DNA from: Bacillota bacterium
GTDB lineage: Bacteria > Bacillota > UBA4882 > UBA8346
DNA: 36,283 nt
Reading direction: 5' to 3'
Assembly: GCA_012735315.1 (NCBI GenBank)
Contig: JAAYHS010000105.1
Location: forward strand, 1-36,283
Part shown: piece after piece, positions 7,854 through 10,136 of the stretch
Layout: each line of letters begins with the position of its first letter
Position numbering within the stretch: position 1 is the stretch's first letter
Notes under the pieces: generated by a model
What the model saw: the letters and a program-made list of their open reading frames with translations, nothing else
The model's database searches: none
Told to the model about the DNA's origin: nothing
Program-made: the position numbers and the translations under genes

Positions 7854-8963
7854 CTATGGTTTAAGTTTTCTGATTCCTTCGCGCAAAACCCGGAAAAATC
7901 GGTCGTTTTGTTCGGCCGTGCCGAAAGTGACCCGAAAATAGTCGGGCAACCCAAATGAATGAGTGGGCCTGACGATAATTCCGTTTTGCAATAAGAACCG
8001 GCAAATCTCGTTGCTTTCACGGCCCCATTTGATCAGGATAAAATTGGCCTGGGTCGGCAGATATTCGATTCCCAGTTCCTCCAGTTCCTTATAGAATAAA
8101 CGCCGCCCGGTTTGGACCAATTCCTTGCTTAGCAAAACATGTTTTTTGCTCTTCAAAGCCGCCAACCCGGCAACTTGGGCCAATAAATTAACGTTAAACG
8201 GATCCTTGACCTTTAACATGTTCCGAACCAATTGCGGCGCGGCGACGGCAAAACCCAACCGCAGACCGGCCATTCCATGGATTTTGGAAAAGGTTCTAAA
8301 GACGATGATCTGTTCAAAACCGGTTTTAAAGAGTTCTATTCCATTCGGGAAATCGGGGTCGTCGGCAAAATCCGCATAAGCCTCATCGATTACCACCAGG
8401 ATATTCTTCGGCAAATCCTTTAAAAAATCGATCAATTCCCTTTTCTTGACGATGGTTCCGGTAGGATTATTAGGATTGCAGATATAAATCAGCTTGGTTT
8501 TTTTAGTAACCGCCGCCGCCAACGCCGCCGGATCGTTTCCCAAATCCCTTCCTTTTACTAATACCGGTTTGGCTCCCATTAATAGAGTAACGCTTTGATA
8601 CATGCTAAAAGTCGGTTGCGGAATTACCACTTCATCGCCGGGATTTAAAAGAGTTTCGGCTAAAATTCGATTGACGTCGTCAAGACCGCTTCCGATTAAA
8701 AGCTGATCTTCATCCACTTCGAATTCTTTCGCCAATGCTTTTTTAAGATAATAATTGTCGGCGTCCGGATAATACGATACCCGGTCCAAAGCTTGCATTA
8801 AAGCTTGACGGACCTCTTTGGAAGGCCCCAGCGGGTTTTCGTTGGAGGCCATTTTGATCACCCCGGTAAGCCCCATTTCCCGCTCCGCTTCTTCAATGGG
8901 TTTCCCCGGCACATAGGGAGGAATCTTTTCAATGCAAGGCCTAACCATCCGTTCGATATTCAA
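7854..8963 (-). CDS. hisC: Histidinol-phosphate aminotransferase (PLP, class I/II)
   Basis: The 369-residue protein is a HisC-type fold I aminotransferase, which converts imidazole-acetol phosphate to histidinol phosphate and, in many bacteria, also serves phenylalanine and tyrosine synthesis. Visible motifs are KMASNENPLGPS near the start, YICNPNNPTGT at about 160-170, VIDEAYADF, and FSKIHGMAGLRLGF with the PLP lysine at K227. The best start is TTG at 8963, with AAGGAG at the right distance; the next ATG is five codons in. It follows chorismate mutase on the same strand after a 199-base gap, so aromatic amino acid synthesis is as likely as histidine synthesis. Confidence 0.93.
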   Translation of the reverse strand: MNIERMVRPCIEKIPPYVPGKPIEEAEREMGLTGVIKMASNENPLGPSKEVRQALMQALDRVSYYPDADNYYLKKALAKEFEVDEDQLLIGSGLDDVNRILAETLLNPGDEVVIPQPTFSMYQSVTLLMGAKPVLVKGRDLGNDPAALAAAVTKKTKLIYICNPNNPTGTIVKKRELIDFLKDLPKNILVVIDEAYADFADDPDFPNGIELFKTGFEQIIVFRTFSKIHGMAGLRLGFAVAAPQLVRNMLKVKDPFNVNLLAQVAGLAALKSKKHVLLSKELVQTGRRLFYKELEELGIEYLPTQANFILIKWGRESNEICRFLLQNGIIVRPTHSFGLPDYFRVTFGTAEQNDRFFRVLREGIRKLKP

Positions 8964-9162
8964 GGGGATCGCTCCTTAATTTTTTAAACGCGCGGACGTT
9001 CGTAAGAGGATCGCGACCTAACTTCATTGGGACCGCGCCTTTTCTTAGTGCGGCGGATCCGATTTCCGGTTACAATCACGACATCAGCGCGACAATCAGT
9101 TTTTGCGCTTGAAAACTTCCAAACGCCGGTAGCGCAACGTCAACTTTACACGCAACTTCGCC

Positions 9163-9540
9163 TTATTCCTCGGGATTTTGCAGATCGGGGCGTAGTTTTA
9201 CGGCTTCTCTCAGGTAAACGGCTTTTATCTCCGATTTAGTTAAGATAGTATAAAAATGAATCAAGATCCGAATGCATAAAGGTAAGGCGCCCGGTTTGGG
9301 AATTTCCTGGGCGCACATTAACGGCGTGTCAACCAACCCCAGACGGCGGGCGGCCACCGCCGGAAACTCACTGGAAATGTCGGGAGTCGTCGTAAAAATA
9401 ATACTAACGATCTTTTCCGGGTCGATCCGGTTTTTTTTTAAAATCGCGGTTAGCAATTCTTCGGTGGCGGCGATAACCTCTTCCGAAGCGTCCCGGGGAA
9501 TCGTAATCGCTCCCCGGACGGCCCAAAGCCTTTCCCGCAT
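9163..9540 (-). CDS. aroH: Chorismate mutase, AroH type
   Basis: The 125-residue protein matches the trimeric AroH family, which rearranges chorismate to prephenate at the entry to phenylalanine and tyrosine synthesis. Family signatures are WAVRGAITIP at residues 6-15 with the active-site arginine, ATEELLTAILKKN, IIFTTTPDISSEFPA, MCAQEIPKPGALPLCIRILIH with the second set of ligands, and VYLREAVKLRPDL near the end. Length agrees with the Bacillus subtilis type. The ATG overlaps the stop of the upstream HutP-like gene by one base (TAATG), so the two are translationally coupled. hisC lies downstream on the same strand. Confidence 0.95.
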   Translation of the reverse strand: MRERLWAVRGAITIPRDASEEVIAATEELLTAILKKNRIDPEKIVSIIFTTTPDISSEFPAVAARRLGLVDTPLMCAQEIPKPGALPLCIRILIHFYTILTKSEIKAVYLREAVKLRPDLQNPEE

Positions 9541-9953
9541 TAAGCAATCGCCCGGTGGCTCAACCCGACGGCCACCTCATCCAGATGAATTAATCCGATG
9601 CTAAAAAACACCGCCACGCTCACATGATCGCCTTTACGTGCGATGCCGACCTTGCCGCCGATATTCAAACCAATTGCTTTTGTAAATATTTGAGATAAAG
9701 CCTCCCGGGTCGCTCCCGCAATGGCGCCTTCCTCGGCGTGGCAATCCTTGATCAAAAATTCCCTTTTAGCGGCCACCACCGCCCGTTCAACGATGATTTT
9801 CATCGCCGGAACCGCTTCCCCGCCATAATCAACGGCTGCCGCTCTAATCTCCCGGCTCCGCAACTCTTCCTTAAGTTTTTTTTCATCTTCCCGCGTGGAG
9901 GTCATAGCCATTGAAAGGGCCGCCTTGGCAACTTCTCTGCTGCCGCTATCCAT
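9540..9953 (-). CDS. HutP family protein (possible ligand-dependent RNA-binding antiterminator)
   Basis: The protein of about 137 residues resembles the HutP family, whose B. subtilis member binds L-histidine and Mg2+ and then RNA to prevent termination in the hut operon. The match is best at the C-terminal half: KAIGLNIGGKVGIARKGDHVSV and the final VAVGLSHR. Counting from a GTG one codon earlier, H73 and H134 line up with the metal ligands H73 and H138 of B. subtilis, but the position of H77 is a glycine within HAEEG, so the metal or ligand site has changed. The ATG at 9953 has GGGGGA at good spacing. It is coupled to aroH, not to a histidine-use operon, so its ligand is unknown. Confidence 0.75.
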   Translation of the reverse strand: MDSGSREVAKAALSMAMTSTREDEKKLKEELRSREIRAAAVDYGGEAVPAMKIIVERAVVAAKREFLIKDCHAEEGAIAGATREALSQIFTKAIGLNIGGKVGIARKGDHVSVAVFFSIGLIHLDEVAVGLSHRAIA

Positions 9954-9998
9954 CACCGATTCCCCCTTCCCGAGGAATTTCTACTTAGAAAATGATTT

Positions 9999-10062
9999 CT
10001 CTGTGTCTCCGTGTCTCTGTGGCAAATAATGATTTTAGCCACGGAGACGCAAAGACACAGAG
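9999..10062. repeat. Inverted repeat with period-8 arms (CACGGAGA / TCTCCGTG)
   Basis: Two 25-base arms face each other across 14 bases. The left arm (9999-10023) reads CTCTGTGTCTCCGTGTC and so on, and the right arm (10038-10062) is its near-perfect complement, starting GCCACGGAGACG. Each arm is itself made of 8-base units (TCTGTGTC, TCCGTGTC, TCTGTGGC). It would form a long hairpin but has no T-run beside it. It lies in the 256-base gap between the HutP-like gene and the small membrane protein gene; I see no gene in that gap. Confidence 0.85.
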
Positions 10063-10136
10063 TTAAAACTATTTTTCAACCTTTAACGTAACCCGGCGAA
10101 CCGGCAATTACTTAGCGTTTTTAGCCTTAAAAGCTA

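Follow-up and report, generated by a model that had tools for sequence, protein, structure and literature searches.

An AroH-linked HutP subfamily as a predicted RNA-binding regulator of aromatic amino-acid genes

The hutP-family gene next to aroH in the window (the whole 36,283-nucleotide stretch of Bacillota DNA analyzed here) is a member of a large HutP subfamily linked to AroH, and we consider it likely that this subfamily acts as an RNA-binding regulator of an aromatic regulon through leaders that carry tandem UAG octamers, with repression as the predicted output. Protein family, fold, linkage to aroH, leader element, the set of genes behind the element and its co-occurrence with HutP were each computed. 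The known role of HutP is to regulate histidine breakdown, and in the open-licence literature we found no report of a HutP-chorismate mutase pairing or of aromatic control by HutP. Judged from sequence, the UAG octamer is probably a HutP binding site and part of an unrecognised aromatic amino-acid control system. Should this pairing hold, a conserved family would gain a function, the aroF and trpX leaders in genomes of 35 family labels would have a possible mode of control, there would be a new RNA element that Rfam does not match at the thresholds used here, and a single RNA-binding fold would serve two amino-acid signals and give opposite outputs.

The hutP-aroH locus and the HutP protein

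The locus lies on the minus strand of the window and comprises the following features.

9540..9956, minus strand: hutP-family gene, 138 aa (PF09021; AF2 model; match to 1vea_B)
9163..9540, minus strand: aroH, monofunctional chorismate mutase (PF07736, 144.8 bits; TIGR01796 equivalog, passed with 136.8 bits against a cut-off of 82); adjacency to hutP conserved
8964..9162, minus strand: aroH-hisC spacer, without a UAG-octamer element by eye or by model R1
7854..8963, minus strand: hisC, histidinol-phosphate transaminase family (TIGR01141, 336 bits against a cut-off of 276.55)
9714..9728, minus strand: codons G77 to G81 (GAIAG), which replace the metal-binding H73-x3-H77 of B. subtilis HutP
9552..9557, minus strand: codons H134-R135, unchanged across the 78 sequences; H134 corresponds to B. 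subtilis H138 (MAFFT)

The window gene is a genuine HutP-family member, as a preliminary description of this DNA had proposed: its product matches the whole PF09021 profile (155.9 bits, Pfam cut-off 25), which is its sole Pfam match, and does not match PF02081 (TRAP). With phmmer, no PDB sequence matched the protein up to E 1. An AlphaFold (AF2) model built from 78 sequences (mean pLDDT 95.4) places the protein on the HutP fold, the structural check that the same description had called for; the best solved-structure matches are all HutP, both by Foldseek (E 2.6e-8 to HutP 1wpv_A) and by VIA (Z 17.5 to HutP 1vea_B over 128 residues, with the next unrelated chain at Z 7.8). Within the alignment, the window protein shares 51–89% identity with 76 of the 77 other members and 39% with the remaining one.

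Translation of hutP begins at a GTG or at an ATG 3 nt downstream. Its stop codon and the aroH start share one base at position 9540 (TAATG), the overlap that had been described, but the two genes are not fused in translation as had also been claimed, since they occupy separate frames with a stop codon between the ORFs. The hutP-aroH gap ranges from -4 to +105 nt among the loci found by tblastn, and the one-base overlap is therefore not conserved. The gene following aroH is indeed hisC, which begins after a gap of 199 nt and is perhaps part of the same operon; the order hutP-aroH-hisC is also present in close relatives. The other scanned neighbors of hutP in the window are a gene for an HI0933-type flavoprotein and a 72-aa ORF without a match, and hut genes are absent among these scanned neighbors. 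An Rfam search of the window returned nothing except one tRNA. By eye, an imperfect inverted repeat (CACGGAGACGCAAAGACACAGAG type) lies upstream of hutP at 9995-10065 and is possibly a dispersed repeat.

In B. subtilis HutP, H73, H77 and H138 are the metal-binding histidines. The preliminary description had located an altered metal site in the motif HAEEG, with H77 replaced by glycine. That register does not stand: in a MAFFT alignment with hut-type HutPs (PDB chains and natural loci), B. subtilis H73 aligns with G77 of the window protein and H77 with G81, an assignment confirmed by hhalign profile comparison (probability 97.6), and the H of HAEEG sits four residues upstream of the H73 position, so that residue numbers 73 and 77 match the B. 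subtilis numbering by chance only. The third histidine, at position 138, is kept as H134, a correspondence that comes from MAFFT only, the hhalign alignment stopping just before this residue. Nor is the altered site unique to the window gene, because none of G77, G81, H134 and R135 varies in the 78-sequence subtype alignment, which was drawn mostly, not wholly, from aroH-linked loci. The PDB titles of the matched HutP structures mention metal dependence and HutP-L-His-Zn. Because the helix histidines are glycine, a Mg2+-histidine complex is an unlikely signal for the AroH-linked protein; with two of three metal ligands missing throughout the subtype and an aromatic candidate regulon, it is plausible, as had been suggested, that the protein senses a small molecule other than histidine.

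Linkage to aroH extends well beyond the window. Among 398 sampled genomes of the phylum, 257 have a HutP match and 289 an AroH match. aroH adjoins hutP in 44 of the first 48 loci located by tblastn, window included, a set in which one locus (L027) stops at a contig edge. Of the larger set of 67 context loci, 48 have aroH immediately after hutP on the same strand, which bears out the conserved linkage for which the preliminary description had proposed a search; the corresponding figure is 34 of 50 for the phylum contexts (L079-L128), which were picked from strong HutP hits across many family labels. A recurrent gene order, in which most names were read off the sequence rather than profile-scanned, runs spmB-rluB-cobO-HI0933 type-small membrane protein-hutP-aroH-[variable]-cmk-plsC-ispH, where the variable block past hutP-aroH holds aroF-tyrA-aroA, trp genes or hisC-aroF. 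The other 19 context loci have hutP without adjacent aroH, and seven of them (L014, L102, L103, L104, L115, L120 and L126) keep cmk within a few genes. In L016, L117 and L127, hutP is the first gene of trpX-like ABC operons, whose TrpX-like binding proteins score 293-359 bits, below the 390-bit cut-off for tryptophan-binding proteins.

Several neighboring genes were recorded in passing. Short TrpF-like proteins (170-180 aa) are encoded beside hutP or hutP-aroH at L009:6797-7339 and L083:5865-6377, both with a partial PRAI match, and perhaps in L120, L103 and L115, which have none. A conserved protein of ~160 aa with a hydrophobic stretch is encoded directly upstream of hutP (L095:4387-4869; cluster c4 in 24 loci), and its scanned member has no Pfam or NCBIfam match. 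The AroH ORFs of L050, L049 and L097 extend well past the chorismate mutase domain and are perhaps fusions with another enzyme.

Tandem UAG octamers upstream of aromatic genes

Two kinds of repeat occur in the spacers that follow hutP or aroH: TRAP-like repeats before trpE, and octamers before trpX or aroF. The latter form a tandem element, (GGUAGKAY)2-3, with UAG every 8 nt, upstream of aromatic genes. An octamer-pair pattern (p8x2) gave 26 hits in the 67 contexts, all 26 on the HutP-sense strand; at least one of these (L105) is far from any recognised aromatic gene, and a looser pair pattern also matched the minus strand in L080 and L113, in what reads as coding sequence. Across the 398 genomes, the pattern GGTAGDRYGGTAGDRYGG occurs at 38 places in 33 genomes, 31 of which carry HutP, as compared to 10 places for the reversed pattern. 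The genes after 30 fetched pattern sites are chiefly aroF, followed by hutP, aroH, trpX and tyrA, with a tryptophanase/TPL-family gene and two symporter-like genes in the minority. Triplets of UAG with a period of 7 were rejected as a candidate, being represented by a few scattered sites and by the local repeat arrays of L085, with none seen before aromatic genes.

We then used a sequence-only model, R1, built from 36 elements. Its first training round left out L132, L146, L154, L156 and L105 as chance-like or inside genes, the first four being pattern hits that we rejected as chance-like; L135, L145, L157, L096 and the second L095 site were excluded later, and the near-duplicates L013, L148 and L153 (two) were dropped. 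Both R1 and the octamer pattern derive from HutP-linked loci. With a strict cut of E<1e-3, chosen after the list was inspected, and with the stricter filters of the genome-wide scan, under which weak matches are lost, R1 matches 68 places in 65 of 398 genomes, spanning 35 family labels. At E<=0.5, 253 of the 398 genomes have a match, and we take the matches at this level as mostly noise. Of 67 loci, 51 have a third NAG (YAG in 45) at +16, a position that R1 itself weights. Rfam gave no gathering-level match in 11 context loci, and ten element loci were without any match to it up to E 0.1.

The genes behind the element are predominantly aromatic: 62 of the 68 strict sites precede aroF (41), trpX (8), hutP (6), aroH (5), tyrA (1) or hisC (1). 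The remaining sites precede, one each, a tryptophanase/TPL-family gene and genes for a DctP binding protein, an SSF symporter, a PaaK-type CoA ligase and another AMP-binding ligase (L135), and an ORF without identification (L226). When only distinct sites outside the training set are counted, 34 of 39 strict sites precede aroF, trpX, aroH, hutP or hisC. Below the strict cut we examined 12 loci (L250-L261), of which one repeats L204 and L256 has no recognised gene; genes at these loci include shikimate kinase (L251), DctP (L252 and L253) and a PaaK-type ligase (L260). In the genus Heliobacterium, candidate sites also precede hutP in H. mobile and H. chlorum (E about 0.01 for 94 kb of sequence), and at the locus of H. 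mobile, a cultivated species, aroH is preceded by one as well (L012). In L006, the hutP-aroH spacer holds a weak R1 site (E 0.12).

The preliminary description had raised the possibility that HutP controls its own leader RNA. Such control is predicted in relatives, where strict sites stand before hutP or aroH, but not in the window, which has no R1 match up to E 10. The best R1 match of this genome is on a different contig (C89:789-818, E 5.9e-4), where the sequence GTAGGATGGTAGGGAGGCAG / ATGTAGGATGGTAGGGAGGCAGAAAA stands directly before the ATG of aroF (DAHP synthase); the repeats cover the aroF Shine-Dalgarno region, and by eye a tyrA-like frame comes next. This site was first found at 2 mismatches and belonged to the R1 training set. 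Own-genome pattern hits up to 3 mismatches are at control level (37 + 26 vs 34 + 27) and were disregarded as a class; L160 and L161 were read among four 2-mismatch hits. L160 is a weak site on C72 (E 0.18) with repeats, a terminator-like hairpin and a DctP gene.

Candidate readers of the octamer element

The element co-occurs with HutP. HutP is present in 63 of the 65 strict-site genomes vs 257 of 398 overall (hypergeometric P 1.8e-11, relatedness ignored), in 37 of the 39 strict-site genomes that contributed no training element (P 1.5e-6, relatedness ignored), and in 111 of the 117 genomes with sites at E<=0.011. The HutP-negative strict-site genomes are G121 (80% complete) and G356 (87% complete), both with sites before aroF; at weaker scores (E<=0.011) they are joined by G017, G133, where the site falls inside a gene, G295, and G333 (90% complete, 470 contigs), which has sites before a PaaK-type ligase (L260) and an SSF-like symporter (L157). 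Genomes with HutP are about four times as many as those with strict sites.

TRAP (MtrB) controls the aromatic pathway by reading NAG triplets, which are repeated in leaders, and the octamer could be bound by TRAP or by another NAG reader, with HutP a neighbor that merely shares its lineages. TRAP is widespread in the same genomes, with a PF02081 match in 54 of the 65 strict-site genomes (in the present genome, on C115), and it is carried by all HutP-negative genomes with sites at E<=0.011 except G356, five out of six. However, the element persists in TRAP-less genomes: ten HutP-positive strict-site genomes, including G010, have no PF02081 match (HutP being counted there regardless of subtype). 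Conversely, among 31 HutP-negative, TRAP-positive genomes, from a scan that covered 126 of the 141 HutP-negative genomes, G121 alone has a strict site. TRAP belongs to a Pfam family different from that of HutP, and TRAP-like repeats are many and spaced 2-3 nt apart, whereas UAG recurs every 8 nt in the octamer element; the two kinds of leader coexist as separate entities in L080 and L094, with TRAP-like repeats at trpE and the octamer at aroF. On balance, the co-occurrence data favor HutP rather than TRAP as the reader of the element, and we regard the TRAP explanation as unlikely. Separately, dense GAG/UAG triplets 2-3 nt apart were noted in the aroH-trpE spacers of L079, L080, L082, L084, L086, L094, L106, L107 and L111; several are followed by a terminator-like hairpin and resemble TRAP sites, and all nine genomes have a PF02081 match.

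Two further explanations were considered. HutP and AroH both have threefold symmetry, and HutP might bind AroH as a partner or serve as its allosteric subunit, with the RNA element unrelated. Such a partnership would fit the tight linkage of the two genes and the better conservation of HutP, which outside close relatives is about 58-69% identical among sampled loci vs 41-55% for AroH. Yet the 19 loci without an adjacent aroH, three of which head trpX-type transporter operons, argue against it, as do two genomes (G004 and G027) that have HutP and no AroH match; moreover, the element tracks HutP and in some genomes precedes hutP itself, and we give the AroH-partner explanation little credence. 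The protein might instead be an ordinary Mg2+/histidine-sensing HutP set with hisC to control histidine synthesis, an idea to which the downstream hisC of the window and close relatives and the retained H134 lend some appeal. This is very improbable, given that two of three metal histidines are invariant glycines and that the candidate regulon is aromatic rather than his; hisC-type enzymes can also perform aromatic transamination.

Predicted mechanism and relation to known regulators

HutP binding to the element, its ligand and the regulatory sign are what we infer from the computed features. In the proposed mechanism, an oligomer of the HutP type would recognise single-stranded leader RNA by two to three tandem UAG triplets 8 nt apart, (GGUAGKAY)n, in an element that adjoins an intrinsic terminator or else overlies the Shine-Dalgarno/start region. 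The bound protein would thereby mask an antiterminator or the ribosome-binding site; the output would be feedback repression, opposite in sign to the hut antiterminator, and the signal would probably be an aromatic amino acid or a pathway metabolite.

Both leader layouts were encountered. A terminator-like hairpin is present in 46 of 67 leaders vs 5.8 expected from neighboring windows, which are largely coding, and for 14 of 40 distinct strict aroF sites the first possible start codon falls within 20 nt of the modelled element. Pairing between the last repeat and the 5' arm of the terminator is possible in some leaders; the signal for antiterminator pairing is weak (mean z -0.50 for 46 leaders and -0.48 for 36 leaders), and such pairing stays a suggestion. 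Both the terminator and the start-codon layout point to lower expression when the protein is bound, the direction required for end-product feedback on aroF. Repression would be odd at one of the targets, the tryptophanase-family gene. In its broadest form, the proposal is that AroH-type HutP is a major unrecognised aromatic sensor in the phylum that, with a metal-poor pocket and UAG-octamer sites, represses aroF, tyrA, aroH, trpXYZ and aromatic transport and catabolic genes by termination or ribosome-site blocking, operating alongside TRAP and using the hut fold with the opposite sign; this broad form we hold with slightly more confidence than doubt.

The octamer leaders share with T-box and other Rfam aromatic leaders the predicted principle of leader-terminator control of amino-acid genes, but differ in that the element is a short tandem repeat, modelled by sequence alone, without an Rfam match in the loci searched. 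Relative to HutP of B. subtilis and Geobacillus (PF09021; 1VEA, 1WMQ, 4OK9), the AroH-linked protein has the same full-length fold and keeps the H138 counterpart, although the two are only 18-25% identical in structure alignments. It differs from hut HutP in having invariant glycines in place of H73 and H77, in its association with aroH and aromatic genes, and in its predicted repression as opposed to antitermination. The triplet period also differs, being 8 in the octamer element and 7 in hut RNA. One report describes HutP as binding clusters of up to three NAG triplets (PMC7430163), and the candidate octamer sites likewise hold up to three NAG triplets.

Other members of the family fall into further subtypes. 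Hut-type HutPs with HAxxH occur in L062, L063 and L068 and as a second copy in L015; a separate subtype carries a CBS-like extension at its N terminus, and there is also a third type. By eye, an extension with two CBS-like units precedes the HutP domain in L067, L069, L070, L071, L073, L074, L075 and L077, and two aligned HutPs with the CBS-like extension lack the helix histidines.
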